Shown one piece after another: positions 26,042-48,640 of a stretch of DNA of 64,000 nucleotides. The notes below the pieces were generated by a model. It searched no databases and was not told the origin of the DNA. It saw only the letters and a program-made list of their open reading frames with translations. Every line of letters begins with the position of its first letter. The stretch's first letter is position 1. A program made the translations under genes and the position numbers. This stretch comes from Cyclobacteriaceae bacterium (GTDB lineage: Bacteria; Bacteroidota; Bacteroidia; Cytophagales; Cyclobacteriaceae), in NCBI GenBank assembly GCA_022841475.1, contig JALHRJ010000013.1:1-64000 (forward strand). The letters run 5' to 3'.

Positions 26042-26926
26042 TCAATATTTAATTTTTTCATCCTTATCCCATAAACCCCAGTAGGCACCCACATCACCTT
26101 CGGCACCCACTTTCCAGGATTCATCGAAGGAAGAAAAATAGAAAATTTCAATATTATCTTCCTTCGACCACTTTTGCGTATTGATGAAATACTTGATGAA
26201 ATTTTCATCGGATGGTATGGCGGCCCCGAAATTGGTGCCTTGACTCGGCCAACCCGTTTCGCTGATAATAACTGGCTTTCCTTTGGCAGCCCGTATTGCC
26301 CTGTTATACATTTCCTTCATATACAACAATGAATAGTCGATGTGACAACCTTCCCAATAGGGGTAGCAATTGGCAAGCACTACATCACATGCTGCAGTAA
26401 TTTGAGGCTTTACATCGAACTCAAAATACGCGTCCACATATCCAACTGGAATTGCGGGAATAGCCTGCTTCACTTTATTTATGAAGGCGATTAATTCATC
26501 TTCTGTCAAATCACCCCGGAGCATAACTTCATTTCCCACTGCGGCTATATCAACATATCCTTCTTTTGAAATCCTGATAAGGTTTTCTACTTCCTGCTGG
26601 TTGATCTTATCGTCATTGCCTAACCAGGCACCGACTAATGTTTTTATGCCATACTCTTTGGCAATTTTTGGAATCAGTTCGTTTCCTTCTGTACATGAAA
26701 ATGACCTAACCCAGTGGGTGTAGGGCTGAATGATTTCCATCCGTCTTCTGATCTGTTCCTCATTGATTATATCACCAGGCTTTTGCCCTTCGATGTATGG
26801 GCTAAAGCCGATGCCATGCATACCCGCATTCAAAACATTTCTAAACAGCTCACGCAAGGACTCTATCGTAGCGCCTTCATACGAAAGACCTGCTAACGAT
26901 AATAACTTTTCAGCTTTAGATGACAT
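26042..26926 (-). CDS. Cytoplasmic GH17 beta-1,3-glucan-active enzyme
   Basis: 294 aa, no signal peptide. Clan GH-A TIM barrel of family GH17: acid/base E133 in AVGNEVM, nucleophile E223 in ISETGWPSQG, plus the family's YVDAYFEF and ANCYPYWEG segments. GH17 enzymes act on beta-1,3-glucans as hydrolases or transglycosylases. It is a close relative of the GH17 domain fused to the transporter in the gene 2 bases upstream, clearly by tandem duplication. It is the last gene of the minus-strand unit that starts at the putative GH149 gene. Acting in the cytoplasm, it should process imported laminari-oligosaccharides. Confidence 0.9.
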   Translation of the reverse strand: MSSKAEKLLSLAGLSYEGATIESLRELFRNVLNAGMHGIGFSPYIEGQKPGDIINEEQIRRRMEIIQPYTHWVRSFSCTEGNELIPKIAKEYGIKTLVGAWLGNDDKINQQEVENLIRISKEGYVDIAAVGNEVMLRGDLTEDELIAFINKVKQAIPAIPVGYVDAYFEFDVKPQITAACDVVLANCYPYWEGCHIDYSLLYMKEMYNRAIRAAKGKPVIISETGWPSQGTNFGAAIPSDENFIKYFINTQKWSKEDNIEIFYFSSFDESWKVGAEGDVGAYWGLWDKDEKIKY

Positions 26927-26928
26927 AG

Positions 26929-29262
26929 TTACTTATATTTTAGATTTTCATTTTTATCCCATATTCCCCAACGTTGACCCACGTCTCCTTCGTGACGAAC
27001 TTTCCATGATTCATCAAATGATGAGAAATAGAACATCTCGATGTTATCTTGCTGAGACCACTTTTGGGTGTTTATAAAATATCTCATGGCATTATCTTGT
27101 GAAGGCTGAGCCTCATTGTTGCTCGATCCCTGATCGGGCCAACCGGTTTCGGTAATGATAACTTTTTTTCCACGCGCAGCTTCTTTCGCTACGGTGTACA
27201 TCTCCTTCAGATAGCCGGATGACTGATCGATGTGGCAACCTTCCCAGAACGGATAGCAGTTCGCCAAAACAACATCACAGGCATCTACCAGATCGGCATG
27301 TTCTTTAAACTGAAAATACGCATCCACATATCCGACCGGTATGTTGGGCAGTGCCTTCTTTACTTGCTGAATATAATTGAGCAATTCTTGTTTAGTTAAA
27401 TCATTGCGTAGCAGTACTTCGTTTCCTACTACGGCAATATCCACATATCCTTTTTTTGCCAGGTTGATTAATCCTTCGATCTCCCTATCGTTATTTGCTC
27501 TATTACTGTCAATCCAGGCGCCAGCCATAGTCTTCAGTCCTTTTTCCCGAGCTACTTTTGGAATAAACTCATTTCCTTCCGTGCACGAAAACGAGCGTAC
27601 CCATTTCGTATAAGGTGTAATGATTGCCATTCTTATTTGAATCTGATCCTCAGATAGCGTATCACCAATGTTTTGTCCCTCGCGGTATGGGCTAAAGCAA
27701 ATTCCGTGAAGTCCTTGGCTTAGCGTTTTGTCGAAAAGTTGCTTCGTTTCTGAATGGGATTTAGCTGTAAAGTCAACATCCGTTGCTAACGCTGAAATTT
27801 TACCAAGCGATAAAAACTTTTCTTTTTCATAATACGAAGATGATTTTTTTGTTTTGGCAGCTTCCCGCTTATCCAACTCTGCCCGTATCTCCCTGGAACG
27901 TTCTTCAGTCACATCATAATTTCGCATAACGTACATAGCTGTTAGCGTACCGAGAATAGGGAGTCCCGAGAAAAAGGCTCGCAACCCTTCAATAGCTCCT
28001 TCGGGCTGTGTGGCTGCTCCAGAATCAAACCCAACAACGCTCATGATTACACCACTTAATCCACCTGCAATGGCAAAACCAAATTTTACCATCCACCAAT
28101 AAATGGCTCCAAAGGTTCCTTCTCTTCTTAAGCCTGTGTTTATTTCATCCATATCAATTACATCGGCTGTCATCGACATCATCAATACAAATAGACTTCC
28201 AATACCGAATGAAAAAAACGGTAATGCAAAAATGAACATGTACGGTTTTCCTGGAATGAAGAGAAACCATAACATGATATAACCTATAACTGAGACACCT
28301 TGAGAAGCGATAAAGGCTCTCTTTTTACCAAACCTTTTCGATAATCGGGTAACAATTGGAATGACTAAAAAAGTGGTTCCTAGCGCGCCCAAACATCCAA
28401 AAAGTGTTGGCCAAATACCTGCTGCTCCGGCATCGCCACCAAAAAGATGGTATACGATAATAAAGAACGAAAATGCTGCGATCGTATTAAAAGCATTGAA
28501 AACCAAAAAGGTCGCGATGCAAAGTTGCCTAAAGGGTTTTAGTGCTAATGCTTCCTTAAAACTTGAAAGTATTGCTTTGAGGCTTCCTCCTATAGTCTTA
28601 ACGCTAAGCGGAGAGTAATTTTCATGAAGAGTCGACTTACTTTTAATAAATAGGGCAGGCACCATGGCGCAAAATGCAAATATGATACCCACCCACACGG
28701 CCAGTGTTCGGGTTGCTACATCCGCTGATTCAAAAAGGGTCTTGTCATACATGATCACCCAAAACCACGGGGCAATCACCCATGCCCATTGACCGATCCA
28801 TTGGGCCACCGCCATAATGCTGGTACGCTCATGAAAATCGTTGCTCATTTCATAGCCCATCGCCACGTATGGAACACTGAAAAGGGTGAGGCCTAAATAG
28901 AAGATAAATGACCAGATGATGAAATAGATAAAATTATATTCTACACCATTGGCTCTATACAATTGCCACATCACAATGAAGGCGAGCCCCATAAGAACAG
29001 ATCCCATGAAAACGTATTGTCTTCGTCTTCCCCATTTGGATTTTGTATTGTCGGAGATGAAGCCCATAATGGGGTCGGTAAACGCATCAAATATTCTGGG
29101 GAAAAAATATATCGTTCCCCACATCCAACCAGGGAAGCCAAGGTCTTGCACTAACACCACCATGAAGATACCCAGCACGGCAGGGAACATTTGATTGGCT
29201 AACATACCCACACCGAAGGCAACTTTTTGACCGAACGGAACCTGATTTGTAATCGTAGACAT
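26929..29262 (-). CDS. GPH-type sugar symporter fused to a C-terminal GH17 domain
   Basis: 777 aa from ATG 29262 (an in-frame ATG at 29325 would add a poor 21-residue leader). Residues ~8-447 are a 12-helix MFS_2/GPH-family (glycoside-pentoside-hexuronide:cation) symporter: FGQKVAFGVGML start, FDAFTDPIMGFISDNTKSKWGRRR loop between helices 2 and 3, and DVIDMDEINTGLRREGTFGA before helix 11. A charged linker (~448-485) leads to a complete GH17 domain with acid/base Glu in VVGNEVLLRNDL and nucleophile Glu in ITETGWPDQG. GPH carriers have both ends in the cytoplasm, so the hydrolase should sit at the inner mouth of the transporter. This suggests import coupled to cleavage or transglycosylation of beta-1,3-gluco-oligosaccharides. 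I know of no described example of this fusion. Confidence 0.9.
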   Translation of the reverse strand: MSTITNQVPFGQKVAFGVGMLANQMFPAVLGIFMVVLVQDLGFPGWMWGTIYFFPRIFDAFTDPIMGFISDNTKSKWGRRRQYVFMGSVLMGLAFIVMWQLYRANGVEYNFIYFIIWSFIFYLGLTLFSVPYVAMGYEMSNDFHERTSIMAVAQWIGQWAWVIAPWFWVIMYDKTLFESADVATRTLAVWVGIIFAFCAMVPALFIKSKSTLHENYSPLSVKTIGGSLKAILSSFKEALALKPFRQLCIATFLVFNAFNTIAAFSFFIIVYHLFGGDAGAAGIWPTLFGCLGALGTTFLVIPIVTRLSKRFGKKRAFIASQGVSVIGYIMLWFLFIPGKPYMFIFALPFFSFGIGSLFVLMMSMTADVIDMDEINTGLRREGTFGAIYWWMVKFGFAIAGGLSGVIMSVVGFDSGAATQPEGAIEGLRAFFSGLPILGTLTAMYVMRNYDVTEERSREIRAELDKREAAKTKKSSSYYEKEKFLSLGKISALATDVDFTAKSHSETKQLFDKTLSQGLHGICFSPYREGQNIGDTLSEDQIQIRMAIITPYTKWVRSFSCTEGNEFIPKVAREKGLKTMAGAWIDSNRANNDREIEGLINLAKKGYVDIAVVGNEVLLRNDLTKQELLNYIQQVKKALPNIPVGYVDAYFQFKEHADLVDACDVVLANCYPFWEGCHIDQSSGYLKEMYTVAKEAARGKKVIITETGWPDQGSSNNEAQPSQDNAMRYFINTQKWSQQDNIEMFYFSSFDESWKVRHEGDVGQRWGIWDKNENLKYK

Positions 29263-29326
29263 GGTTTTTATTTTAGATTGGAGGTATTTTTTTCTTTCTG
29301 AATAATCGTTTGAAGACCTGAACATT

Positions 29327-29390
29327 CCCTCACCCCGTCCTTCGTACCTCGGACACCCCTCTCCCCGGGGAGAGGGGCAGGGGTGAGGGG
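29327..29390. repeat. REP/REPIN-like palindromic element
   Basis: A 64-base GC-rich element in an AT-rich spacer. The outer arms CCCTCACCCC and GGGGTGAGGG (29327-29336 and 29380-29389) enclose a 22-bp perfect palindrome at 29356-29377, made of CCCCTCTCCCC and its complement. This form is known as a dispersed intergenic repeat in several bacterial phyla. It lies between the GH17 lipoprotein gene and the transporter fusion and may form an mRNA hairpin there. Confidence 0.85.
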
Positions 29391-29444: not shown

Positions 29445-30716
29445 TTATTTTACCGGTGGTGCCATAACTTCTTCCAAAAGTTTCTTTTCATCACCATTAA
29501 ATGTTTTTACAATCGGATTGCCACCCCTGGTAAGGTTATTAAAGACACCCTGATCGACTAACTCCCACAATGGATATTTAGCTTCACCTGAAAGTCCAAA
29601 TAGTCCAAAATGATTTTCAGAACCATTCGGATTTCCTGCGTCTTTCCACTGTTCATCAAAGGCTTCGAAATAAAAACAGGATATACCCTTAGCGTTCGTC
29701 CACTCACGCATGTGTTTGTAGTATCGACCTTGTTTGTACTCATCAGTAGCTCGTGATCCTTCTGGTCCATAAAAACCATCGGACACGGTTGCCCAACCCG
29801 TTTCACCAATGTGAATGGGTTTATCCACGCCCAGGCTTTTTACATACCTGGCAACAGAGTCGTATTGTGCTTTGGCAAACGCTACAGCACGTAGCATGGC
29901 CGCATCTGCTTTTTCAACTTCTGAATGTTTTGTTTCTTCCACAGGCACTCGCCAAAAGTCGGGATTGTAATGTGTGTTGTGATAAGGATACGTATGCATA
30001 GATATGTAATCCACCGCTTTGATTAGGTTCTCCAGATCTTTTGTGTGATAGGTGGAATCTCCACCTCCCCAGGAGGAAAAATCGTCAGAACTGGTTATCC
30101 AAAGTTCTTTGGAAAGTTTGCCTTCAGCCTTCAAAGATTGCAAGTGGTTAACCCACTTAAGGATAACAGCAGGCTGAACGTAATAGCTAGCCGCCCACTT
30201 TACCATCGCTTCATTGCCCACAGCTACGATTTTTACTATATCCGGATATTGATTAGCCAGTGCAACTGCGCGATTAATCTCGCCTTCATTCTGTTCACTT
30301 TCTATGTCGTGATCAGGCGTTTGATCGGTCCATGCATTTTTACAATCTATCCAGGCGCCCAGCATCACGTACATTTCAAAATCAGGATCAGCGCTCTTTA
30401 ACTCATGGATGGCCTTAAGTAAATTAGATGCATGGGGCAATTGAACATTGTAAGTCCTGACTATTTTAACTCCCATGGCAGATAAAATTTTCAGATCTTC
30501 TTTCAGTTGCTCAATGGTTGGCTGAATCTCTCTTGATTTTTCCCTGTAGCCTTCATAGCTCATGGCCAGGTAATTTGCGTTGCCTAAAATATCTTTTGCT
30601 GTCACTTCTTTTTGGTTAACTGGTTTATCTGACTGTCCTTCTGGTTGCCTATTGCTGCAAGAAATGCTTGCCGTTAAAATTATTCCGAAACAAAGTGCTA
30701 ATAGTTTAAAATTCAT
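29445..30716 (-). CDS. GH17 lipoprotein (outer envelope beta-1,3-glucanase/transglycosylase)
   Basis: 423 aa from the ATG at 30716, which gives a clean lipoprotein signal ending ASISC (Cys20); an upstream ATG at 30743 would add nine polar residues. GH17-type TIM barrel: SAMGVKIVRTYN early strand, acid/base E169 in AVGNEAM, MHTYPYH mid segment and nucleophile E305 in HIGETGW. It is more distant from the two cytoplasmic GH17 domains than they are from each other. Anchored in the envelope, it could cut beta-1,3-glucan before uptake. It sits between the GH3 gene and the transporter fusion. Confidence 0.9.
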   Translation of the reverse strand: MNFKLLALCFGIILTASISCSNRQPEGQSDKPVNQKEVTAKDILGNANYLAMSYEGYREKSREIQPTIEQLKEDLKILSAMGVKIVRTYNVQLPHASNLLKAIHELKSADPDFEMYVMLGAWIDCKNAWTDQTPDHDIESEQNEGEINRAVALANQYPDIVKIVAVGNEAMVKWAASYYVQPAVILKWVNHLQSLKAEGKLSKELWITSSDDFSSWGGGDSTYHTKDLENLIKAVDYISMHTYPYHNTHYNPDFWRVPVEETKHSEVEKADAAMLRAVAFAKAQYDSVARYVKSLGVDKPIHIGETGWATVSDGFYGPEGSRATDEYKQGRYYKHMREWTNAKGISCFYFEAFDEQWKDAGNPNGSENHFGLFGLSGEAKYPLWELVDQGVFNNLTRGGNPIVKTFNGDEKKLLEEVMAPPVK

Positions 30717-30769
30717 AGTGATGTCATTTGTTTCTGCCTTCATATAAATCTATTCTTCGTACATACAGA

Positions 30770-32506
30770 TTATTTATAGTTCAAGCCATATCCGATAGGA
30801 TAAAGCGGTTTTATCCCGCTGTCCCAAAAGTTGGGACCATACTTACCATTATAATCTGCTTCTGATTTTGGCCAGGAATGGGGAAGCTTTCCCTTAAAAT
30901 CATATTCGCCAAACAACGCTTCAGCAATGCCATCGCCCTCAGAACCAGGTAGCCATGCTGCGACAAATGCATTGGATTGTTCTATTTGTTTGGTGACTAC
31001 CAACGGTCTTCCCGAAATCAAAACCACTACCACCTTGATTCCTTTTTCAACATAGTGGCCAATTAATTTTTGGTGAGCGTCCGAAAGCGTAAGCTGATAC
31101 TTGTTCATCTCACCGCCAATGTCTCCGAAAAATTCAGCGTAGGGAGTTTCTCCAACAACAATCACGGCTACATCCACATTGTCAGGGTTGGCACTACCAT
31201 CATGATCGTATATAACTTCTTGTGTTGAAAATTTCCTAATGCCTTCCAGAATAGAAGTAGCGTCTTTGTAATTTTCAGTTGTTCCTTGCCAGTTCACAGT
31301 CCACCCACCGGATTGCAACCCTGTGTTATCTCCAAATTCACCAACTACTACAATCTTAGAAGCTTTCCTTAACGGTAATGTGTCGTTATCATTTTTGAGG
31401 AGCACCAAAGATTCGCGCACTGCTTGTCGCGCTACCTCCCGATGTTTCTTGATTCCAATTTTCTTAATCAATTTTTTATCAGGAAAAGGATTATCAAATA
31501 GTCCAACCCGGAATTTCTGTCGCAAAATCCTGCGCACCGCATCGTCAATTCTGGATTGTGGAATCACTCCATTCAACACGGCATTTCGTACACCCTCCTG
31601 AAACATGCCAAGATCTCCGTCCACCGCCATCACTACATCGATACCGGCATTGATGATCTCTGTTTCCCCAAAACGTGAGTAGGCCTTCCAATCGGAAACA
31701 ACAATACCATCAAAATGCAAACTCTCTTTTAAAAGATCGGTGATCATCGCTTTGTGCGCATGCATAGAAATACCATCCAACTTATTAAACGAAGCCATTA
31801 CGGATCCTACGCCTGCTTCAATAGCTGCCTGATAGGGTGGTAGCAGGCGCTGTTGAACTTCTTCCAGACTCAAGGTGGTGTTGCCGCCTTCCACTCCAAA
31901 ATCAGTTGCTCCGTCTCCAATAAAATGTTTGGCAGTAGCCATCACGGTGAATGGTTCAGTGAGACCCTGATGTCCACGCACGGAGGCTTTTGTTAATTCA
32001 GTTGTAATTTCTGTGATTTCAGAGAATGCCTCATAAACCCGGCCCCACTTTTCATTAAATGGAATTGCTACGCATGGTGAAAAGACCCAATTAAATCCGG
32101 TGGCCTTCGACTCGATGGCGGTAATAGTCGCAATCTTTTCTACCAGGTCGGCATTTCTTGAAGCGCCTAAACCAATATTGTGCGGAAAGATTGTAGCGCC
32201 TTCATAGGTATTCTGACCATGCACCGCATCCACACCAAACAGCAAAGGTATACCCAGGCGGGTATCCAGAGCTTGCTCCTGCATGTCGATGAATTTGTCT
32301 TGCCATTCGGTAGCATCGTTGCCAGGGAGTGGGCCTTGTGTGTGTATGACCGAGCCAATGTACTTTGCCTTTATATCTTCAAGAGTGATGTCATCAAAAT
32401 GCCGTACCTGTGTCATTTGACCTATCTTCTCATCGAGGGTCATCTGCGCCAGCAAGGAATCAACTTTTTGCTCCAGGAGTGTGTTGGTTTTTATTTTTTT
32501 ATCCAT
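30770..32506 (-). CDS. GH3 beta-glucosidase / exo-beta-glucanase, cytoplasmic
   Basis: 578 aa, two-domain GH3 of the barley ExoI type. The N-terminal barrel contains GVDAVHGQNTYEGATIFPHN, AKHFIGDG and the nucleophile D272 in VVSDWKAYSRF. The C-terminal domain contains the probable acid/base E458 in GETPYAEFFGD. No signal peptide is visible, unlike most periplasmic GH3 enzymes of Bacteroidota, so it should act on imported oligosaccharides to release glucose. It is 63 bases after the putative GH149 gene. Confidence 0.92.
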   Translation of the reverse strand: MDKKIKTNTLLEQKVDSLLAQMTLDEKIGQMTQVRHFDDITLEDIKAKYIGSVIHTQGPLPGNDATEWQDKFIDMQEQALDTRLGIPLLFGVDAVHGQNTYEGATIFPHNIGLGASRNADLVEKIATITAIESKATGFNWVFSPCVAIPFNEKWGRVYEAFSEITEITTELTKASVRGHQGLTEPFTVMATAKHFIGDGATDFGVEGGNTTLSLEEVQQRLLPPYQAAIEAGVGSVMASFNKLDGISMHAHKAMITDLLKESLHFDGIVVSDWKAYSRFGETEIINAGIDVVMAVDGDLGMFQEGVRNAVLNGVIPQSRIDDAVRRILRQKFRVGLFDNPFPDKKLIKKIGIKKHREVARQAVRESLVLLKNDNDTLPLRKASKIVVVGEFGDNTGLQSGGWTVNWQGTTENYKDATSILEGIRKFSTQEVIYDHDGSANPDNVDVAVIVVGETPYAEFFGDIGGEMNKYQLTLSDAHQKLIGHYVEKGIKVVVVLISGRPLVVTKQIEQSNAFVAAWLPGSEGDGIAEALFGEYDFKGKLPHSWPKSEADYNGKYGPNFWDSGIKPLYPIGYGLNYK

Positions 32507-32569: not shown

Positions 32570-35500
32570 CTACCTCAACATCCCTTGATTAATATGAACT
32601 ACTATTCGAATAACATCTCCCGTTCTATCAAATATTTTCTGACTAGTCGATCTATCAAGACTCAAACTTTCAGATTTTGAAACGCTACCATTCAAAACTA
32701 ATTCAAGTCTATTTTTATCAGCTAGTTTATAGATAACCGGCACCTGGCAGTAAGTGAAACACAATGATTTTTCTTCCAACGGCAATTCAATTGTTTTTCC
32801 CTGTACATCTACATACTTAAAGAGTTGTTTCTTAGATAAGAATTCAGTTTTCCTCAGCATATGTGGACTAAATGAAAGCTGGCCATCCTTTACAACTACA
32901 CCTAACTCTCCAAAGCGTGATAAAATATCTTCTTTTACCTGGCCCGTCATTCCGGGTTGTTGAGCGCCCTTGTTGGCTGGTGTATGTGAATAGGGGTCTG
33001 TAGGGAATGCTCCATAAAGAGTGGGAGATTTGTGAATGCCAATGCCTTCATTAATCTCATAGTAATGCATCAGCAGTTTACCAACCAGGCTTTCGTTCTC
33101 CTGATCCTCAATTGCTTTGAGGCAACATTCCTGCACGGCCAATTGCAGTTTGGAAACCATGTGCCAATAAATGGATCCTAATCCTTCGTAGCCATAGAAA
33201 GTACCTGACCTTCCGGTAAAAGCTTTATGGTTAAATATTTTTTCAAAGATGTTCAGCACTTCCTCTTTGTCAGAAGGTGTTATCGGATAGTGCCTGCTTT
33301 CCAATTCCTCCAAAGCGTTTCGAAGATCAGATGCGTTTTTGAAATTACCGTTGAAGTGATAACCACCCTGGGTATCTTGTTCAACAATTCGGCTGTTGCC
33401 ATCCTTTACTAGATTAGTCAACAGGGTTGACTTTGTTATCACCGATTTGGGAATATTATTCTTCTTCAGAAAACCCGGTAAATCTTTGTTAGGATAAAGC
33501 AGGTAACTATACTGATCTTCTCTGAACAACGCACTCGTTTTTAAACCGTCCAGCGTTTCAAGAACTTCTTTTGATGTCAAATAACCAGCGCTCAACACGG
33601 CCACCTGGCCCTCGAGCATTTCGCTGAGATGGGCGATAGAAACTTCTTGACCGTTTTCAACCGTCATCAAATTGTAAGAATGATATAGGTTATCTGTTCT
33701 CTTATTAGCACGAATAGTATGCTCGAGATAATTCAGGCATAGCGTAGAAAACCCAATCAGGTCTTTTACGGGTACTATCCTTCGCTGATCACTAAACGAT
33801 TGATCGTAGATCCGCGCTCTGTAATTACTGCCAGCCAGTCCCAACCCATCCAGAATTTTTTTACGGTCTTTGTTAGAGATTGATCCGGCAAGCAAGTGTT
33901 GATTTTTCGAAAGTGTATCTCTACTGTTTTCAAAAAAGACAAGTAATTCTTCGGAAATTCTAACCTCATTAATTTCACTTCGTTCAAGGAGATCTTTAAA
34001 AAAAGTTACAAACCTTCTCAGGTAGCAGAGTGTCACTACCGATACACCATTTCCCACCAACGCATTGTTGGCGTCATTCCATTCGGGACGTTGGGTATTC
34101 ATCCAAATGCCACCCTCTGGAATGAAATTGGAGATCTTGGCTAATACTGTAGCGAGAATTTTTTCAATAAAATTGACATGATGGATGACGCCCTTACTAT
34201 TTTGAAGTAAGGCACTATCAGCACCTAAGATTGACCAGCGTTCTTGTATCGTGTGGTCAAGCTTTCTATCAAAATCAATCGTATCCTTAGGATTCTTTAG
34301 TATGTCTTCGTAACGTTTTATTTTATACGGCACATTGGCATACACAAAAATGTCCTCATTAAAATAGCTTGCCAGTCTTCCGGGTGCATAACTTTCAGAA
34401 AATTCCAGAAACTTTAACAGATAGATAATTTGATGATCGCCCCAATAGCCGATGTAAGACCAGGGATCATCGGCTTCAATTCTTTCCCAGTCGATACCAT
34501 TCTTGGTGATCCGATAAGGATTATATCCATCGAACGTTGAGGCATTTAAGAACTTGAAGATCATACCTTCAATAAACTCCGGATAGGAGTGAGCCAATGC
34601 TTCCCAGTTCTGAAAAATATCTCTCCAGTTTCCGGCATAGTCCAGCACTTTTGATCCGTCCGATTCATTGCGGGTATTGATGGAGAATTGATTCCAGGGT
34701 CTGCTGGGATCACCATGTCTTCGGCTAAACTTTAATGGCAAATATTCCAGACTCAAACGTGTAAAGTCGGTGTCGTCAGATTTTAATGCAAGATCTTTTA
34801 ATGCAGCAAGTGAGAACTGGTTGGGAAGATTTTGGATACTTTCTTTATGACGTTCAAAGACTTGTTGATTCGCTTTTGATAGATAATTTCTTAGATCACC
34901 TTTTTCAATTTGATAGTTGTTATCAAAGATGCCACCCCGCATGATGTTAAACATCGCATTATTAAAGTGTCTGGTATCTCTGAGTCTGTCTGTTGTTAAT
35001 TGCAAGCCATCCGCAGCTGCATTAAGTCGAATGAGCTGTTCCGTTCCTGATTCAACGTCTTCTTCAATTCTGACTACAAGATGATTTTCGCTTTTTATAG
35101 CTTTCGATAAGTCTATAATTTGTGAGGCGTTTTGATTAACATCGGCCACAATCATCCAATCTTTTTTACTTTTCGCTTCAAGTAAAATATCGGCTTGGAT
35201 AAAGTAGGCACCCTTTTCTGCTTTGATGTCTGTTTCTTCTTTAACAAGAACTCCTTTTCTGAAACTATCGAGTTGCAAAGAGGATAGGAGACGCATTGAA
35301 TTTTCCAGTCCGATTGACCAGGCAATAGTTGCCTTTAACGCTTCACTCGGCTCGGCCTTGTCAACGATAATAGCACTCAATGCGAAGATTCCTATTCCGC
35401 TCTCTTTTTCTAGTTCACTTCTTTTGTAAGCATCTACCAGGTTGCTTCGGTGGCTTTGAAGTGCGCTGCCAACACCATAAGGCATAATATTTTGAATGCC

Positions 35501-35974
35501 ATCGAGAACAGAAATTTTCACCTCCGTTGCATTTCCATTTATCAATCTGCTGTTTCTGACAAAACCGTAGTTATTGCTTGTACTCCATTGATATTGGAAG
35601 GTCAGGTTGAAATCGCGATTGATTTCTTCAAATAGAATCTTATTGCCATAGACACTCTTGTAAAGGTTTCGCTGCAGGTCATGCACGTTGGCATAGTGAA
35701 TGGAAAAGGGTTCCCACAGATATGATTTGCCATCCTTTTGAATGCGGAAAATTGTTTTCGATCCGGTGAGTTCGGAAGATTCTATGATTTTGTCATCGGT
35801 ATAATACGGAAACAAAGCATATTCAGCATTCTTTCTACCCGCACTCAATCCGCCATTGCTGCCAATAAACATCCAGTGGTTAGCGTCACTTAAGATGCTC
35901 ATGAAAAACGGTCGCATCTTGTCGACATTCGAAATCTGATAGTAGTATTCGTTGTCTATACAAACCTGATCCAT
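32570..35974 (-). CDS. Probable GH149 beta-1,3-oligoglucan phosphorylase
   Basis: 1134 aa, no signal peptide. The large size, the opening with GSNGGLSAGRKNAEYALFPYY, the central PSRPWNQFSIN, NWRDIFQNWEAL and WSYIGYWGDHQIIYLLKFLE stretches, and the all-alpha toroid look of the second half fit the GH94-like phosphorylases, specifically GH149. GH149 enzymes phosphorolyse beta-1,3-oligoglucans to alpha-glucose-1-phosphate and are about this long. The neighbours (GH17, GH3, GH16) are the expected context. I cannot identify the catalytic Asp with certainty. It is the first gene of a minus-strand unit, separated from the upstream unit by a terminator. Alternatives are GH161 or GH94, less likely given length. 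Confidence 0.72.
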   Translation of the reverse strand: MDQVCIDNEYYYQISNVDKMRPFFMSILSDANHWMFIGSNGGLSAGRKNAEYALFPYYTDDKIIESSELTGSKTIFRIQKDGKSYLWEPFSIHYANVHDLQRNLYKSVYGNKILFEEINRDFNLTFQYQWSTSNNYGFVRNSRLINGNATEVKISVLDGIQNIMPYGVGSALQSHRSNLVDAYKRSELEKESGIGIFALSAIIVDKAEPSEALKATIAWSIGLENSMRLLSSLQLDSFRKGVLVKEETDIKAEKGAYFIQADILLEAKSKKDWMIVADVNQNASQIIDLSKAIKSENHLVVRIEEDVESGTEQLIRLNAAADGLQLTTDRLRDTRHFNNAMFNIMRGGIFDNNYQIEKGDLRNYLSKANQQVFERHKESIQNLPNQFSLAALKDLALKSDDTDFTRLSLEYLPLKFSRRHGDPSRPWNQFSINTRNESDGSKVLDYAGNWRDIFQNWEALAHSYPEFIEGMIFKFLNASTFDGYNPYRITKNGIDWERIEADDPWSYIGYWGDHQIIYLLKFLEFSESYAPGRLASYFNEDIFVYANVPYKIKRYEDILKNPKDTIDFDRKLDHTIQERWSILGADSALLQNSKGVIHHVNFIEKILATVLAKISNFIPEGGIWMNTQRPEWNDANNALVGNGVSVVTLCYLRRFVTFFKDLLERSEINEVRISEELLVFFENSRDTLSKNQHLLAGSISNKDRKKILDGLGLAGSNYRARIYDQSFSDQRRIVPVKDLIGFSTLCLNYLEHTIRANKRTDNLYHSYNLMTVENGQEVSIAHLSEMLEGQVAVLSAGYLTSKEVLETLDGLKTSALFREDQYSYLLYPNKDLPGFLKKNNIPKSVITKSTLLTNLVKDGNSRIVEQDTQGGYHFNGNFKNASDLRNALEELESRHYPITPSDKEEVLNIFEKIFNHKAFTGRSGTFYGYEGLGSIYWHMVSKLQLAVQECCLKAIEDQENESLVGKLLMHYYEINEGIGIHKSPTLYGAFPTDPYSHTPANKGAQQPGMTGQVKEDILSRFGELGVVVKDGQLSFSPHMLRKTEFLSKKQLFKYVDVQGKTIELPLEEKSLCFTYCQVPVIYKLADKNRLELVLNGSVSKSESLSLDRSTSQKIFDRTGDVIRIVVHINQGMLR

Positions 35975-36119: not shown

Positions 36120-39100
36120 CTATGGATTGAGGGTTACAGAAACATTATCAATATTGGCCGATACGCTGCAACCAGCATCCCCACCACACACGGCTTCAAT
36201 CAGAAACGATATGCCTTCCGAAACATCTGTTGAGGCTCCTATAGTAAACGTGCCTGTAAACGTTGTCCAGTTTGTGCCCGGAATAGGTGCCGGGTTAAAG
36301 ACATGCGTGAAGGAAGCACCTGAAGCACCTTCTCCAAAGAGTAATACATTGAACACAGCACCGGGTTGAACTACGGTTCCTTTGTGATCAAACTTGATTT
36401 GAACAACATCGCCCGACTGCACAGTTCCGGCACCAATTCGTTCTTGTTTAAATGCTGGATTGCTAGGTCCGCCAGTAGCAAGTTTGCCCGACCATGCTCC
36501 ACCATTGTTGGTGGTATTATCCAATGCTGCAGTTCCGCCATTTTGGAACAACATCCAGCCGGTTGCGTCACCCGTTTCAAAGTTACCATTGGTTGCTAAG
36601 TTGGCACCGGGTGTTCCGCCTCCTGAAGTTTTGTAGAAGTAGATATTATCCAAGAAGATATCACCGTTTCCATCAAACTTCAATTGAACGATATTGGTAA
36701 GATTGACCGGTGGTGAAAAATCGGTTAATGGAATATCAATGCTTGACCAGTTGCCATTGGTGGGTACTGTAAGCGCCTTTGCTTTTTCTACCGGCCCGGT
36801 GCTAATGATGCTCACATTTAAAGCCGTAGAATTCGCGGTCCAAAAATCAACATGCATGAAACCCATTCCGGAGACATCTTGTGCATTACCACTGAAGTCT
36901 GTGCCTTGATAATTAAGGGTAGCATATTTCAGGGTTGCATTGCCGGCAACGTCTATGGTTGTAGTAACCGTGCCTTGGCCCCAGTTAGGGTTATAATCTA
37001 CACCGGTAATATTGGTGTAAGCATTACTGAAAATCGAAATCACATCAGCGACAGCCCGAGCCGGTGGAGTAGGTGCGGCTGTGGTGGGAGATGTGGCCGG
37101 GGCTCCGGCTTTGTAGAAGTAAATATTGTCTAAGAAGATGTCACCATTTCCGTCAAACTTTAATTGAATTAAGTTGGCAAGTGCAACTGGCGAAAAATCA
37201 GCAACCGGAATATCAATGCTTGTCCAGTTTCCATTGGTAGGCACCGTGAGGGCCTTCGCTTTTTCTACTGGCCCCGGACTAATCAGACTCACATTTAAAG
37301 CAGTTGAATTGGCTGTCCAATAGTCAAGATGTAGGAAATTCATACCAGAGACATCTTGCGCATTACCACTGAAGTCTGTGCCTTGATAATTAAGAGTGGC
37401 ATATTTCAATGTTGCGTTGCCCGCAATATCTATGGTTGTGGTTACAGTGCCTTGACCCCAGTTAGGATTATAATCTACGCCTGTAATATTGGTGTAAGCA
37501 TTACTGAAGATCGAGATCACATCAGCGGCAGCACGTGCGGGTGGAGTAGGTGCAGCGGTGGTAGGTGCAGTTGCTCCGCCACCACCTCCGGCAGTGAGCG
37601 TGAGATCATCCAGGTAGTATGTACCACCTGCCGTGATTGGACTGTCTGTCTGATTATTATCTGGTTTAATAACTAACTGATTATAGGCTGTTGGCCCGCC
37701 CGGTAATCCGGTAAATGTTATCGAGACCTCCGTCCATTCATTAGCATTGGTGATTGTTTTGAAAACAGGAGCGGGATTACCCGTCACAGGATTCGTTTGA
37801 GGATTAACGGCTAATTCAAATCTAAAAACAACATTTGCTTTTGTAGAATAGACCTTGATTTTAAACGTATTGGTTGTTGTTAGATTGAAATTGCTCGCAA
37901 ATGTGTTCTGGATACCGGCAAAGAAATCAGAACCCGTTGGTTTGTTCACCTTCAGAACATAGTCAGATGTATTAATTCCTGTTTTGGATGGATTTACAAA
38001 GAGCTCGGAAGTAATACCCGATCCAAAATTTTCTGAAGAAAGGAAAGTTGAACAACCTTCAAAATCTACCGGGATGCTAGCAGCTGCAACTGGGGTGCCA
38101 GTACATCCTCCAGCGCTACCACCACCTCCGGTTCCATACAGTCGTAAGTCATCAAAATAATAAATCTTTTCATTATTCGTATTTAAGTCAAAGAACAAAA
38201 TGATCTTATCGTATTTGTTGCTCTGACTAGCTGCAAAAGGAAAGGTAAGTTCTTCCCATTCATTGGTTTTGGTTGAGGTGACTTCCAGTTGTGTATTCGT
38301 TCCCGCATTGGCTTTATCCTCAAGTTTGATCAAGAGTTTAAATCCGGGTACATCAGAAAACACTTTTACTTTGAAACCGCTGCTTGTCGTAAAATTCAAT
38401 TTTGCATCCAGGTTAATCTGATTGTTTGCAAAAAGAGAAGCAGCTGTTCTGGAAATCTTGCCCACTTTGCAAGAACTATTTAAAGCATTATCAAAATTTG
38501 GATTGGATGCCCATTCAAAACCTGCATTATCTGAGATGATACTGGCACCTGGATCCGTTTGAAAAGTCAAATTAAAGTTTGCCGCACTCAGTGACTGCGC
38601 AGTTTCCGCAACGCAGGCAGGTCCACTTCCTGATCCGTAGAGTTTGAGGTCATCAAAATAATAGATCTTTTGATTATTTGTATTTAAGTCGAAGAACAAA
38701 ATGATCTTATCGTATTTGTTGCTCTGGCTGCTTGCAAACGGAAAGGTGAGTTCTTCCCATTCATTTGTTTTGGTTGAGGTGACTTCCAATTCGGTATTCG
38801 TTCCCGCATTGGCTTTATCTTCAAGTTTTATTAAAAGTTTAAATCCCGGTACATCCGAGAACACTTTTACCTTGAACCCACTGTTGGAATTGAAATCTAA
38901 TTTTGCATCCAGGTTAATCTGATTATTTGCGAAAAGAGAGGCAGCCGTTCTGGAAATCTTACCCACCTTGCAAGAACTATTTAAAGCATTATCAAAATTT
39001 GGATTGGTTGCCCATTCAAAACCTGCATTATCTGAAATGATGCTGGTGCCTGGGTCTGTCTGAAAAGTTAAATTAAAGTCTGTCGCACTTAGTGACTGTT

Positions 39101-39908
39101 CGGTTTCTGGTGTGCATGCCAGTTCAAATCCTTCCTGTTCTATGTCATCGATGTAAAATGTTCCGGCCGTTGTCCCCGGGCCATCTATAAATAAAGTTAG
39201 CCTTGAATACTTAGCTGTAGAGTTAAAATCAAAAGCCAACTTTTCCCATCCGGTACCACCATGGCTTCTTGAAACTTCCAACGCACCCGCAGTTCCTTCT
39301 TCCAACTTCATTAAAACACTCAGTGCTTTATCAGACCACATGTTCATGCTTATTCTTTTGTTGGCCGACAAATCAATTTCACTTCCTAAGTCAAAGAAAA
39401 TGCCTTCAAAGGCAGCTCCACTATTTGTAATGGCACCAACTTTTGTGACTTTATCATTTGATCCGGATTGATCTGGATTCTCTACAACAGCAAAGGAAGC
39501 ACCGCTAAAAACGGTGGGTGTATATTTTACGCTGCTGTTATCAAATGTTATGGGTAGTGAAGCGACAACTTTTACGTTGACGGCTATCGTATCCTTAAAA
39601 ATATCGGAAGCCCCGGAAACATGGGAAGCGGTTAGGCTAACGATGTAGGTGCCGGTAGGATAGGTTTTTATGGGATCAATCTCTTTGGATGTTTCGTCAT
39701 CACCAAAGTCCCACAGGTATTTTGTTGCATTGGTTGAAGTGTTGATGAAAGTTATCGTGCCGGTATCTTCATTCAATGTATAGGTGAAGCCTGCTTTAAC
39801 CTGAGGAAGCTCCTCTATTTCATCCTCGCATCCCACGAAGAATACTATCGTGCTGACAAGGAATGTCAGCTTTGCATACTTGAAAAATATATTCATAATC
39901 TTTAGCAT
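36120..39908 (-). CDS. Large multi-CBM surface lipoprotein with PKD domain
   Basis: 1262 aa, lipobox FFVGC (Cys27). Domain order: PKD ~35-113 (LWDFGD, TYIVSLTA); CBM-like jelly roll ~118-258; module A twice, 265-424 and 432-591; a related jelly roll ~602-772; module B twice, 782-933 and 942-1093; and a CBM4_9-like domain ~1101-1262 (NLATNGNFETGDATGWMLF). Modules end in F-x-D-(D/N)-(I/L) strands typical of carbohydrate-binding jelly rolls, joined by Gly/Thr/Pro linkers. No catalytic domain is visible, so it probably captures glucan on the cell surface. It is in a tight operon (11-base gap) with GH16. The paired modules are nearly identical at DNA level. Confidence 0.85.
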   Translation of the reverse strand: MLKIMNIFFKYAKLTFLVSTIVFFVGCEDEIEELPQVKAGFTYTLNEDTGTITFINTSTNATKYLWDFGDDETSKEIDPIKTYPTGTYIVSLTASHVSGASDIFKDTIAVNVKVVASLPITFDNSSVKYTPTVFSGASFAVVENPDQSGSNDKVTKVGAITNSGAAFEGIFFDLGSEIDLSANKRISMNMWSDKALSVLMKLEEGTAGALEVSRSHGGTGWEKLAFDFNSTAKYSRLTLFIDGPGTTAGTFYIDDIEQEGFELACTPETEQSLSATDFNLTFQTDPGTSIISDNAGFEWATNPNFDNALNSSCKVGKISRTAASLFANNQINLDAKLDFNSNSGFKVKVFSDVPGFKLLIKLEDKANAGTNTELEVTSTKTNEWEELTFPFASSQSNKYDKIILFFDLNTNNQKIYYFDDLKLYGSGSGPACVAETAQSLSAANFNLTFQTDPGASIISDNAGFEWASNPNFDNALNSSCKVGKISRTAASLFANNQINLDAKLNFTTSSGFKVKVFSDVPGFKLLIKLEDKANAGTNTQLEVTSTKTNEWEELTFPFAASQSNKYDKIILFFDLNTNNEKIYYFDDLRLYGTGGGGSAGGCTGTPVAAASIPVDFEGCSTFLSSENFGSGITSELFVNPSKTGINTSDYVLKVNKPTGSDFFAGIQNTFASNFNLTTTNTFKIKVYSTKANVVFRFELAVNPQTNPVTGNPAPVFKTITNANEWTEVSITFTGLPGGPTAYNQLVIKPDNNQTDSPITAGGTYYLDDLTLTAGGGGGATAPTTAAPTPPARAAADVISIFSNAYTNITGVDYNPNWGQGTVTTTIDIAGNATLKYATLNYQGTDFSGNAQDVSGMNFLHLDYWTANSTALNVSLISPGPVEKAKALTVPTNGNWTSIDIPVADFSPVALANLIQLKFDGNGDIFLDNIYFYKAGAPATSPTTAAPTPPARAVADVISIFSNAYTNITGVDYNPNWGQGTVTTTIDVAGNATLKYATLNYQGTDFSGNAQDVSGMGFMHVDFWTANSTALNVSIISTGPVEKAKALTVPTNGNWSSIDIPLTDFSPPVNLTNIVQLKFDGNGDIFLDNIYFYKTSGGGTPGANLATNGNFETGDATGWMLFQNGGTAALDNTTNNGGAWSGKLATGGPSNPAFKQERIGAGTVQSGDVVQIKFDHKGTVVQPGAVFNVLLFGEGASGASFTHVFNPAPIPGTNWTTFTGTFTIGASTDVSEGISFLIEAVCGGDAGCSVSANIDNVSVTLNP
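36630..37565 (-). repeat. Tandem intragenic duplication, module B of the CBM lipoprotein
   Basis: Two direct copies of about 456 bases (37110-37565 and 36630-37085), offset 480 bases. They encode near-identical modules starting PTTAAPTPPAR and ending IFLDNIYFYK. A diverged third copy forms the C-terminus of the 40775-42175 protein (from about residue 305). Confidence 0.9.
38136..39116 (-). repeat. Tandem intragenic duplication, module A of the CBM lipoprotein
   Basis: Two direct copies of about 480 bases (38637-39116 and 38136-38615), offset about 501 bases. They encode almost the same 160 residues, with a few substitutions such as DFNSNSG versus NFTTSSG. Low divergence points to a recent duplication or gene conversion. 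Confidence 0.9.
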
Positions 39909-39919
39909 TAGTTTAACAG

Positions 39920-40753
39920 TTATTTATATACGCGCACGTAATCAACCAACATGGTTTGTGGAAAAACGGTCTCACTATTAGGCGAACCGACAAACGATCC
40001 TCCCACAGCGAGATTTAGTAAAATATAAAATGGCTTATCGAATACCCATTCACCCGGTACATCGGCAGGCGTTATTTGATTGTATAAAACATCGTCTACA
40101 TAAAAGTTTACGTAATCCGGTGCCCACTCAATGCCGAACACATGAAATCCGGTATCAAACCGATCATTCTTTAAAGTATAGCTTTTTGAAATGGATTCAC
40201 CAGCAGAATATCCAGGACCATGAACAGTACCCAGTACAATGGTGGGATCTTGTCCACGGAATTCCATGATATCAATTTCTCCCGCACCCGGCCAGGGATT
40301 TGTATCAATATCAGCGCCCAACATCCAGAAGGCTGGCCAGATGCCTTGTCCCCAAGGCAACTTGATTCTGGCTTCATACCGGCCATAGGCCTGCTCGAAT
40401 TTGCCCTTGGTTAATAACCGCGCTGATGTGTACGATGATCCTTGAAAGGATTCCTTTCGGGCCGTGATCAGCAAATATCCATTTTGAACAGACACATTTT
40501 CTTTGCGATTAGTGTAGAATTGCAACTCGTTATTTCCCCAGCCATTGTTGCCTGTGCCGATATCATAACTCCAGATGGCATCGTTGGGTGCGCCATTGGT
40601 ATTAAACTCATCTTGAATGACAAGTTCATCCAAGGTCGTTACCGTTTGCTCATAATCTGAACAACTTATGATTACCGCAAGCATACAGACAGCTAGAAAA
40701 CGCAGTCCTATCCTGTTGGTGATTTGAAGTTTACATTGATCTTGCTGATTCAT
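39920..40753 (-). CDS. GH16 endo-beta-1,3-glucanase (laminarinase), lipoprotein
   Basis: 277 aa. Signal peptide with lipobox VIISC (Cys31). The catalytic GH16 motif is GEIDIMEFRG: nucleophile E159, D161 and acid/base E164 (the bulged E-I-D-I-M-E form of laminarinases and lichenases). GIWPAFWMLG and IEWAPDYVNFYVDD are the usual flanking segments. No extra CBM. It should cut beta-1,3-glucan at the cell surface, feeding the neighbouring binding proteins and the barrel fusion protein. It is in one operon with genes on either side (gaps of 11 and 21 bases). Confidence 0.95.
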   Translation of the reverse strand: MNQQDQCKLQITNRIGLRFLAVCMLAVIISCSDYEQTVTTLDELVIQDEFNTNGAPNDAIWSYDIGTGNNGWGNNELQFYTNRKENVSVQNGYLLITARKESFQGSSYTSARLLTKGKFEQAYGRYEARIKLPWGQGIWPAFWMLGADIDTNPWPGAGEIDIMEFRGQDPTIVLGTVHGPGYSAGESISKSYTLKNDRFDTGFHVFGIEWAPDYVNFYVDDVLYNQITPADVPGEWVFDKPFYILLNLAVGGSFVGSPNSETVFPQTMLVDYVRVYK

Positions 40754-42187: not shown

Positions 42188-45100
42188 TTATTTACCAACA
42201 TTGATGTGCAGGTAGGTTCTGAATTCCCACTCGTTTCCATTAGGAAAACCAACTGGACTTATGATGGGTGACGTTGCAAACTCTGCCGCTTGATTAGGCA
42301 GGTATCTGGGAGAAAATTCATTCAGTGAACGCCAGGTAAATCGCATACCCAGAGTAGTGTTCGGTAGAATAAACCAATCCTGTTTTCCCACGGTCGTGGA
42401 GATATCGGCCATTACCTGCAGTGGAAATGTTAAGTTAAAATCGCGGTGATAATCGAAGGGACCCCAATCATTGAACCGGAGGTGGGTGGAAAGTTTTAAA
42501 GTCTTATAAATTACTCTTACATCACCGCCATAGCGCTCGATCGTCCGCGGATCAGGACCATTAGCCTGCCCATTTCCACCATATAAATTCGCGATGATTC
42601 CAAGCTGAGGATTAATCTTGGATACGATTCGTGAATTAATTTCCCATAGATCGAGTGCGGGTGGTGCACCGGATGCGGCAGCAGGAACGCGTCCCGTTCC
42701 AGGAAAAATAACGGCAGCGTCCTGTGTGGTAGGTAAGTGACGATAAACAAATCCAATATTGGCTGCGAGCGGAGCATCTTCCGAGCGATCGTTATCCCAG
42801 TCGTACATCCAGGTGCCAGGAGTAGGATCAAACGTGAAGAGAACTTCACCACCAACAGTTTCTCTATTTGAGCGTACAACAAAGGGATCATCCAAAATAT
42901 TTCTTGGTCGGGCCGGCCCTCCAACATCTCCAGGAATTGGATCTACGAGTGGCTTTTGCCATAAGAAGTTAGGCGCGACTTGCCACTTGCCAAGCAAATA
43001 TGTGAAGCCAGTTAAAATAATATTCTTATTACCACTTCCGCTATCTTTAAGTGTCCATCCGGTAAATGTTCTGGTATAGTCTCCACCACCGTTAGCTACA
43101 AGTCCTTGAGCCGCAGCCTGTGCATACCAATTTATTCGTCCTGCTGTATAGCTAAGTTTTATTTTACCACCCCACGTATCGGTTGATTGAACTTTATCTA
43201 CATACACCTGGTAATTTCCTTCTTCGCCACGCACCACTTGAAAGTCGCGACCAACAAGAGGCTGGCCACCCCAGATGCCACCCACTTCAATTATTAGCTT
43301 ATCAAATAATTTTGTTTCTGCTTGCAGCGTTAATCTCCTCGTTCTTGGCTGAGGCACAGCAATTGAACTGATCGCTACACCCGGATCGTCAAGGTCTTCA
43401 TGGAAAATTCCGGTTAGGTTTAGCTTACCAACCTGGCGCTGGTATTTCACTAACACAGCTGGGTTTGCTCCCCACCAGAGTTCGCGGCCATACGCCACTT
43501 TTAATCCTTTCAGGTATTTCTTGCCGGCAATTTCAACACCCTGCGGTGCCAAACCATTATAGATATCAATATTAGGACCATAGTTGGCTTCCGGATAAAG
43601 TCCAAAAAAGTCGCCTTCGTAACCCCAATGATAATGGCCGGTTCTATAAAAACCTTCCAGGTCAAATAACTTGTGATTCCAGGAGTAGTCCGCTCTATAA
43701 ACTGCCAGCCGGTTAACGGAGTTAAGAATTTGGGGACCGGATTGAGTCTGCACTTCGAGGGGCCTTCCTCTGTTTTCGTAGAATATTTCGTTGATAGGAT
43801 TTAGCGCAACGTTACCCAGCACGTTAAATACAACATTCGCACGTACATTGGAAGCAGGTTTTGCTTCGATACCAACGAAGTAAGATTCCATGTGGTCAAA
43901 GCCCAATTGATTTGGGTAAGCCACGTTGTTGGGATCGGGCTTATCCGGTGTGGTGACCAGGTTTCCACCCGTATTAAAAGTTGTAATCTCCGCTCGCAAT
44001 TCACTCACCCTGATTTTTTGAGATTGCTCACCAATTAATGCAGCCTGATCGCCTCGTGCTTTCATAACGGCATCAATTAATTGGATAGAGGCAAAATGAT
44101 TATCAACACCTTCCAGCGTCATTCCATTTGTATAGGGATTTAGTTCATGAGCTTCTTTCAGTGCATAGTATGCCGCACGCGGATATAATGAATATAAACC
44201 ACGCGGAGTAGTTTGGCCTTTTGCACAGATACCAAACCATTCTTCATTCATGTTATTTTCACCTTCTACAAAATCATTCTGGTATCCACCATTTGCCCAT
44301 GAAGCATTATTATCATGAACATCCAGATTTTTGGTTTGTCCGAATTTCCACCACCCATCGCTGAATTGAAATGTGAAACCACCAATTGAATTTCCTGTCT
44401 TTCCTAACCCTGCAGCGTGCTGGTAGATCTCCTTCCAGTTGCTTACCATATAATAAGCTTGCGCTTCCTGATCTTCTGCTTGCTGAATGGTATTATAGGC
44501 ATCTGCACCGAACTCGGTAAATAGGATGGGTTTGTTTAACTCATCGCGGACACGTTGAAAAGCATCGCCAAAGGAACTGCCGCGATACATATTGGTGCCG
44601 AAGATGTCTATGTCTTTACACTCTTCTTTGATGATCTCCAGGAAGAGCAAATCACCATTACAAATGGCCACCGGATGTGTCTTATCCAATCCCTTCATGG
44701 CTACCGTTGCTTCATTAAACAACTTATACATGGCGATTGCCCGGGTGGTAGATTTTCTGTCTTCAAGAGGTATATTTTCTGTTTCGGCACCTTCCCAGAA
44801 TAAACCGTAGTTGTTCTCGTTTCCGAGCAGGTAGAGGAGAAGGCCTGGAGTACCTTTATAGCTTTCTACCATTTCAGTTACCTCTGCCAAGAGTAATTTT
44901 TTCACTCGTGGGTCCGCATATTCCGTATTGGCAACCCAGGCTCCATCCAGGGTTAAACCATATCTCCCGAAGGAGTGATTGAGCATGGTATAAATGCCAT
45001 ACTTCTCATATATATATTGGATCCATCGGGCGGGCACACCGGTGTATTGCCGGATTGTATTGACCCCCATATTTTTCAACAAGGCCATCTCCGCATCCAG

Positions 45101-45319: not shown

Positions 45320-45542
45320 AATAGGTTTGATTTACTGTGTAAAGGATTGAAAGCAATCGATTGTTTTACTTTCACTCCGAAATCGTTTGAAATTAGGCCA
45401 CTTTAGTTTGGAAAATGAAAAAACTGACTACATCAATATTTTCATTGGGCTACTACAATCTTTCAATTTTGTATTCCAGAGGCTGATTAAATAAATATAT
45501 TTGTTGCTCACCGGCTGCACAAAGGCCATTCAAAAGGTATTT

Positions 45543-48383: not shown

Positions 48384-48640
48384 AAGAATGCCACTTATTA
48401 TATAGGCAGAATTCAAAAGTAAAAGATACTGAAATGCATTGTATACGGGTAGGTAGTTTTACTTTCGCGAGGTGTAATTAAGATCTTGTTATACCTGCTA
48501 TAGGACAGTCCGGTACCTGATCATAATCCTTGTATATTATTTCTTAAATGACTAGAATTAGAGAAATAAAGTTGATCCGGAAATGATTTTAGAGGAGGAT
48601 CGGATAGATTGTTTATTATAACTACTTGAATCAGGACATC

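Follow-up and report, generated by a model that had tools for sequence, protein, structure and literature searches.

Does a single gene of this bacterium join a sugar carrier to a GH17 enzyme and, if so, on which side of the membrane would the enzyme work and what would it do there? The window (the whole stretch of DNA that was analysed, 64,000 nucleotides) holds such a reading frame on its minus strand, and a first, sequence-only reading had taken it for a complete GPH-type carrier followed by a complete GH17 domain. The following features were located, with the evidence used for each given in brackets.

26929..29262, minus strand: MFS-GH17 fusion gene, 777 aa (frame, Pfam, PDB and model evidence)
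27925..29235, minus strand: GPH-type carrier, residues 10-446 (AlphaFold2 helices, MelB alignment, conservation in 86 fusions)
27763..27924, minus strand: tail helix 453-471, hinge 471-480 and variable linker to about residue 500 (pLDDT, conservation)
26932..27762, minus strand: fused GH17 TIM barrel, residues 501-777, predicted cytoplasmic (Pfam, PDB, AlphaFold2, Foldseek, K/R count)

Carrier and enzyme in one reading frame

The open reading frame 26929..29325 on the minus strand is uninterrupted and encodes 798 aa if read from 29325. Translation most probably begins with the ATG at 29262, where the start had been placed before, because the four full-length relatives from the same genus are 777-aa ORFs beginning at the equivalent codon. 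Searches with the 798-aa ORF returned Pfam MFS_2 at residues 37-474 (6.6e-66) and Glyco_hydro_17 (3.1e-13) as well as PDB sequence matches to the R. miehei GH17 glucanosyltransferase 4wtp over residues 550-789 (6.8e-32) and to MelB 4m64 over residues 33-486. AlphaFold2 with 86 fusions gave two confident parts (mean pLDDT 85.2, pTM 0.59), in which helices between residues 10 and 446, interpreted as twelve membrane spans, were followed by a tail helix (453-471), a low-confidence hinge and a TIM barrel. The nearest folds identified by Foldseek were MFSD2A and MelB for the carrier and GH17 4wtr/4wtp for the enzyme part. The open frame, both Pfam domains and both folds thus bear out a complete carrier and a complete GH17 in a single chain.

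Between the two domains the window shows neither a stop nor a frameshift. The 777-aa ORF is also intact in genome G011, where the in-frame TAA reported as a possible interruption between the domains precedes the true start. An origin of the fusion in faulty sequencing or assembly is practically out of the question: no supporting point was found, and an artefact is ruled out by independent genomes with identical architecture, namely four genomes of the same genus and 73 of the best 80 of 571 loci. The fusion of a membrane carrier and a GH17 in one gene is real.

The hinge at residues 471-480 has a block mean pLDDT of 48, the stretch 467-500 is poorly conserved (majority-residue fraction 0.29-0.49), and the carrier tail of the fusion ends as in unfused carriers. 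A check for internal starts in the window gave a divided answer: no in-frame ATG, GTG or TTG lies between codons 464 and 544, and candidates are present at the extreme end of the carrier (ATG 443, ATG 446, GTG 451 and TTG 463). Since a Met between residues 450 and 500 occurs in only 22 of 86 fusions, there is no conserved ATG that could serve as the start of a separate enzyme. Promoter-like signals between 25900 and 30900 were at chance level (12 vs 12.5 expected) and terminator-like signals mildly above it (7 vs 4.0, sd 2.0); neither kind was found in the linker (27763-27924).

The carrier has its fold and its cation-site residues in common with MelB (4m64, 8t60). In a hand-counted alignment D55, D59, T121 and K377 of MelB, which we take to be its cation-site residues, correspond to D59, D63, T126 and K393 of the fusion; among the 86 fusions D59, D63 and K393 are invariant and T126 is conserved at 90% or more. 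In contrast, Asp19 and Asp124 of MelB, presumably its sugar-binding residues, align by the same hand count to Q24 and S129, and MelB is without an enzyme domain. The carrier reached 188.8 bits with NCBIfam TIGR00792 (gph subfamily), under the cut-off of 231.35, and is well above the Pfam cut-off for MFS_2. To judge by these scores it is GPH-like and lies outside the curated gph score.

Hydropathy alone yielded 17 scraps and no clean helices, and the model helices were used in its place. With the AlphaFold2 spans 29 K/R residues were counted on the N-terminal side vs 5 on the opposite side, and the direction is the same in 86 of 86 relatives. Because the number of helices is even and both ends fall on the positive side, the C-terminus and the GH17 domain are predicted to be cytoplasmic, which agrees with the topology proposed from the sequence alone. 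The opposite arrangement, a periplasmic GH17 whose product is taken up by the carrier, would fit the wording 'hydrolysis and product uptake' in the accessible text of a 2018 paper on a Formosa fusion (PMC6246565). It is very unlikely for the present gene, given the modelled topology and the fact that by eye 11 of 12 N-termini of free GH17 proteins have no signal peptide (the twelfth, L070, is distant and outside the tree described below).

Occurrence, relatives and modularity of the fusion

A full fusion was found in 4 of 35 genomes of the same genus, and one further genome has part of the carrier, truncated where the contig ends. Fusions occur in 14 of 395 genomes of the phylum and in 10 of 395 genomes of the class, with four fusion genomes common to both sets. 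The combination of MFS_2 and GH17 recurs widely: in a scan of genome contigs 73 of the best 80 of 571 relative-encoding loci (numbered with an L below) were fused, a proportion which is no population frequency, as the loci came from at least 591 matching stretches with fused queries. In the other 7 of these best 80 the carrier, of the same type, is unfused and accompanied by a free GH17; the fused domain is in this respect inessential to the carrier. The fused loci among the best 80 of 571 comprise 55 from Bacteroidota, 13 from Pseudomonadota and 5 from Balneolota. Of the 13 pseudomonadotal loci 12 are placed in Burkholderiales and one belongs to a betaproteobacterium without an order; they have 60-72% GC and two carry strain names (Rubrivivax pictus W35 and Beta proteobacterium AAP65). 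Due to this GC content and the two strain-named, non-MAG loci, the betaproteobacterial fusions are judged from their sequences to result from transfer and not from contamination.

Next to the fusion of the window lies a second GH17 gene.

26042..26926, minus strand: free cytoplasmic-type GH17, 294 aa, an old paralogue of the fused domain (Pfam, tree, identity)

The coordinates confirm that it begins 2 nt past the fusion stop. The further claim that it is a near-copy of the fused domain did not hold, as the two are 59% identical and fall into separate branches. Of the 73 fusion loci among the best 80 of 571, 69 have another GH17 of this kind; within the 73 its position is directly downstream in 57, elsewhere in 11 (all betaproteobacterial), while 2 have none and 3 reach a contig end. 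The betaproteobacterial loci L121, L123, L126, L132, L134, L141, L142, L152 and L155 show the order GH16, free GH17, divergent GH17, fusion, with GH149 mostly missing from the fetched stretch; in the GC-rich L121, L123 and L141 the ORF lengths are overestimated, the first start codon having been taken. A third, divergent cytoplasmic-type GH17, often located after the free GH17, was observed at L034 476-1501, L098 13293-14225 and L119 12341-13270. It is about 25% identical and has its nucleophile in TEAGW; the L119 copy is nearest to the solved GH17 chain 6fcg.

The GH17 tree was built from 144 rows (distinct domains of 255-360 aa and 6 divergent GH17 rows), drawn from the loci below L076, the fusion-less loci and the even-numbered fusion loci from L076 on. 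In this tree one branch (SH-aLRT 97) unites 55 of the 59 fused domains. The other (99) comprises all 79 free domains, taken from loci with a fusion as well as from loci whose fetched stretch, shorter than 4 kb in some cases, shows none. The fused domain of L038 lies inside the free branch, and those of L031, L122 and L060 are basal. A single clade of the fused domains minus L038 was accepted (p-AU 0.889), the constrained tree surpassing the free one by 29.85 log units; one clade of all 59 fused domains including L038 was 9.15 log units worse and unrejected (AU p 0.374). By tree and identity, the fused and the free GH17 represent separate old branches. A recent tandem duplication, considered as a candidate origin of the pair, is ruled out by the 59% identity and the separate branches.

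The MFS tree (101 rows, with the odd-numbered fused loci from L076 on thinned) requires 13 switches of state, from fused to unfused or back, and as many as two of these are artefacts of cut loci (L020 and L021 are cut copies of L005 and L007). At L044, L045 and L060 the fusion is built on a different carrier type, and in three genomes the carrier core, about residues 36-436, is of the Flavobacterium kind inside the fusion gene, as recognised by DNA identity.

L007 1495-3828: carrier-core-swapped fusion gene
L087 5040-7373: carrier-core-swapped fusion gene
L093 2286-4622: carrier-core-swapped fusion gene

The carrier-core DNA of L087 is 76-92% identical to L054 (Flavobacterium) vs 57-75% to L004 of its own genus, and the DNA of its GH17 half is 85-97% identical to L004. 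The swapped core of L007 and L093 (the latter labelled Flavobacteriales) matches that of L087 at 95-100%, so that the three may, by sequence, go back to one event. It follows from the swap that a foreign carrier is compatible with the GH17 or at any rate tolerated by it. At L038 526-2988 a carrier is fused to a GH17 of the free type, whose identity is 72% with its best free relative and 58% with the best-scoring fused domain and which retains both the Tyr discussed below and, inside the fusion, the start-like MSFREE. Because of this closeness and the internal start-like sequence, L038 is regarded as a second fusion event; its genome had no other match listed at E <=1e-30 (two of six candidates scored, 525 nt downstream covered). 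The sequences thus describe carrier and enzyme halves that are exchangeable, and the variable hinge together with the natural carrier-core swap speak for simple tethering over a built channel between the halves.

The same variability raises the possibility that fusion does no more than keep both halves co-expressed at a 1:1 ratio, import and cleavage being kinetically uncoupled. Consistent with it are the variable hinge, the alternations in the MFS tree, the carrier core swapped in three genomes and 16 unfused carriers that have a GH17 gene directly behind them, at -59 to 96 nt (range scanned -100 to 400 nt; the other unfused carriers have none within it). Against it stands the old fused branch, with a free paralogue alongside at 69 of 73 fusion loci (best 80 of 571); this coexistence suggests that the fused copy has a function not covered by the free one. 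On balance, co-expression as the sole effect is a substantial possibility that we nevertheless do not prefer.

Active site of the fused GH17

The reaction of the tethered enzyme was approached through three positions of the fused domain.

27418..27420, minus strand: acid/base Glu 615 (VGNE; invariant in 86 fusions)
27148..27150, minus strand: nucleophile Glu 705 (ETGWP; invariant in 86 fusions)
27409..27411, minus strand: Leu 618, at the site of the transglycosylation Tyr, MlGH17B Tyr136 / RmBgt17A Tyr102 (residue comparison)

Glu 615 and Glu 705 are named as the catalytic pair because the GH17 literature so assigns them, and the earlier statement that both catalytic Glu are present is correct for this gene and for all 86 aligned fusions. 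According to the accessible text of PMC11005184, a Tyr at the Tyr136 site of MlGH17B is tied to transglycosylation, and the fusion protein FbGH17B has Met there. Among distinct domains of at least 250 aa, the residues at this site are L 62, M 11, H 11, Y 3, F 3 and Q 3 in 93 fused domains and Y 88, L 23 and one unread in 112 free domains. In the window both the fused and the free GH17 have Leu. All 23 free copies with Leu come from fusion loci, 11 of them from the genus of the window and its nearest kin and 12 from betaproteobacteria; free copies from stretches without a fusion have Tyr in 22 of 23 cases, the remaining one being the unread L070, a distant relative.

The Tyr136 site ranks 12th of 287 columns in the divergence between fused and free domains, the top positions being 756, 764 and 757, of which 757 lies at the +1 subsite and differs between the two clades. 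At the 18 positions named for MlGH17B both clades share all residues except at the sites of Tyr136, Tyr168 and Ser275, where the Tyr168 site is mixed in both clades and one fused row cut at its end is excepted. On the tree the Tyr trait changes four times; when it is set against fusion status only two independent pairs result, a number too small for testing. The Tyr loss is therefore read as a mark of the clades, its association with fusion being without statistical weight beyond two clades, and the marker itself is a single residue interpreted via two characterised enzymes.

These residues bear on whether the fused GH17 is mainly a transglycosylase, which would elongate or branch imported oligosaccharides so that they cannot leave. 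The nearest solved structure is a GH17 glucanosyltransferase, most subsite residues of MlGH17B (Trp191 and Glu192 included) are kept in the fused domains, and the unfused MlGH17B is reported as a transglycosylase in the available part of PMC11005184. Of the glucanosyltransglycosylase signature the fusion has Trp673 and Glu674 of YPxWEG, but Leu618 occupies the place of the Tyr, as some residue other than Tyr does in 90 of 93 fused domains; the +1 subsite position 757 departs from the free clade, and the Formosa fusion domain was assayed and, in the accessible text of PMC6246565, reported as a hydrolase. Because the Tyr is missing from 90 of 93 fused domains and the Formosa domain is a reported hydrolase, hydrolysis is favoured; transglycosylation looks less likely, and as the main activity it is considered improbable. 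We infer that the fused GH17 would mainly hydrolyse.

The beta-1,3-glucan cluster and a proposed import step

The gene lies in a beta-1,3-glucan cluster (GH149, GH3, secreted GH17 and GH16), for which the strict term PUL would need SusCD genes.

29445..30743, minus strand: secreted GH17, lipoprotein signal by eye (Pfam)
30770..32506, minus strand: GH3 (Pfam)
32570..35974, minus strand: GH149 beta-1,3-glucan phosphorylase (NCBIfam NF058639, 1785 bits vs cut-off 1150)
36120..39908, minus strand: PKD / carbohydrate-binding protein (domain search)
39920..40753, minus strand: GH16 (domain search)
45501..48383, plus strand: regulator-propeller sensor protein, adjoining the cluster and divergent (Pfam Reg_prop)

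A Pfam GH17 search of the own genome (94% complete) returned, at E <=0.001, only the fusion, the free GH17 and the secreted GH17 of the window. In the window no Rfam match at gathering thresholds and no tRNA gene were found. Among the best 80 of 571 loci, 59 fusion loci extend 7.5 kb or more ahead of the fusion, and 49 of these encode a GH149 (>150 bits); the remaining 10 are all betaproteobacterial and include L155, whose GH149-like ORF is partial and scores under 150 bits. A GH30 lies between the secreted GH17 and the fusion at L082, the single gap examined.

Further observations were made in the surroundings of these genes. The gap between the secreted GH17 and the fusion contains a perfect 20-base palindrome (29357-29376) within a longer GC-rich repeat, with three copies in the genome. 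The minus-strand gene at 42188-45319 encodes a 1043-aa cluster protein with an N-terminal GH2-type TIM barrel followed by about 600 aa, of which residues 779-1038 are predicted as long strands like those of an outer-membrane barrel (mean pLDDT 52.9; residues 431-773 below 50). Its PDB matches were at chance only (E 0.19 and above), it has one genomic copy, and in Algoriphagus loci its TIM barrel occurs alone with about 430 aa. According to this model it is possibly a second enzyme-membrane fusion of the cluster. Beyond the regulator, the plus strand at 48626-51113 carries two genes that could be fed by glucose 1-phosphate derived from GH149: one of GT4 type, weakly matching starch synthase, and one of glgC type, resembling ADP-glucose pyrophosphorylase.

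The novelty that the sequence-only reading implied for a carrier-GH17 fusion is not given, since the architecture is in print (PMC6246565, PMC10108472). The published fusion FbGH17B (FORMB_24740) of Formosa sp. Hel1_33_131 has, as described in the accessible text of PMC6246565, an N-terminal MFS part with 12 predicted helices and a C-terminal GH17, and a GH17 laminarinase and a GH30 are encoded in the same gene cluster; its GH17 domain hydrolyses debranched laminarin and oligosaccharides, the latter to glucose. The authors stated in 2018 that they were aware of no other transporter-CAZyme fusion (PMC6246565, same text). As judged by architecture, locus and published residue, the two fusions share the order of MFS and then GH17 and the location in a glucan gene cluster. 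They differ in that the secreted GH17 stands directly before the fusion in the window, with GH3 before it and no GH30 between, whereas the Formosa locus includes GH30, in that Leu replaces the Met at the Tyr136 site, and in that the enzyme is predicted to be cytoplasmic while the Formosa text places product uptake with hydrolysis. In excerpts of a survey of North Sea bloom MAGs (PMC10108472), 'most' variant-1 laminarin PULs are said to contain at least one GH17-MFS fusion and the clusters to be expressed. These fusions have the same architecture and come from Bacteroidota and Gammaproteobacteria (SAR92, Luminiphilus, SAR86); the present set adds fusions from Burkholderiales and Balneolota, groups unnamed in the accessible text of that survey. 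The architecture is also mentioned in the accessible text of PMC11005184, where, as in that of PMC13188888, MlGH17B of Muricauda lutaonensis is described as a free GH17 glucanosyltransglycosylase. MlGH17B resembles the window's GH17 domains in most subsite residues, in its predicted cytoplasmic location and in the MFS gene of its cluster, but it is unfused and has Tyr136, where both GH17 domains of the window have Leu. The fusion of the window is a further example of the published MFS-GH17 design of laminarin clusters.

The reading that we prefer, with a probability of about 0.7, is that the fusion forms the inner-membrane import step of a laminarin-type cluster and that its tethered GH17 cuts imported oligosaccharides near the gate. 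Secreted GH16 and GH17 would produce beta-1,3-gluco-oligosaccharides outside the cell, and the GPH-type carrier half would import them, its substrate being proposed from the cluster. The cytoplasmic GH17 barrel on its flexible C-terminal hinge would then cut the arriving oligosaccharides near the gate, and the products would pass to GH149 (yielding glucose 1-phosphate), to GH3 and to the free GH17. Tethering may in this way bring some kinetic gain and trap the sugar, and hydrolysis on arrival may pull uptake forward, as proposed from the sequence alone.

A division of labour between the two paralogues can be put forward tentatively and is, in our estimate, rather unlikely: after the loss of Tyr the fused GH17 would be the hydrolase at the gate, the soluble Tyr-bearing paralogue would reshuffle oligosaccharides for GH149, and in the genus of the window and its nearest kin as well as in betaproteobacteria the soluble copy would later have lost its Tyr, too. 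Such a split would parallel, for beta-1,3-glucan, the MalQ/MalP pair known from the maltose system, with an additional enzyme attached to the carrier.

If the enzyme is cytoplasmic, the published order of hydrolysis with product uptake would be reversed to uptake and subsequent cutting. What tethering is worth can be put to a direct test on the paralogue pair with its switched active-site residue, on the naturally swapped carriers and on L038 as a second fusion. Moreover, fusions of this kind belong to laminarin clusters that were reported, in the accessible text of PMC10108472, as expressed in an algal bloom.
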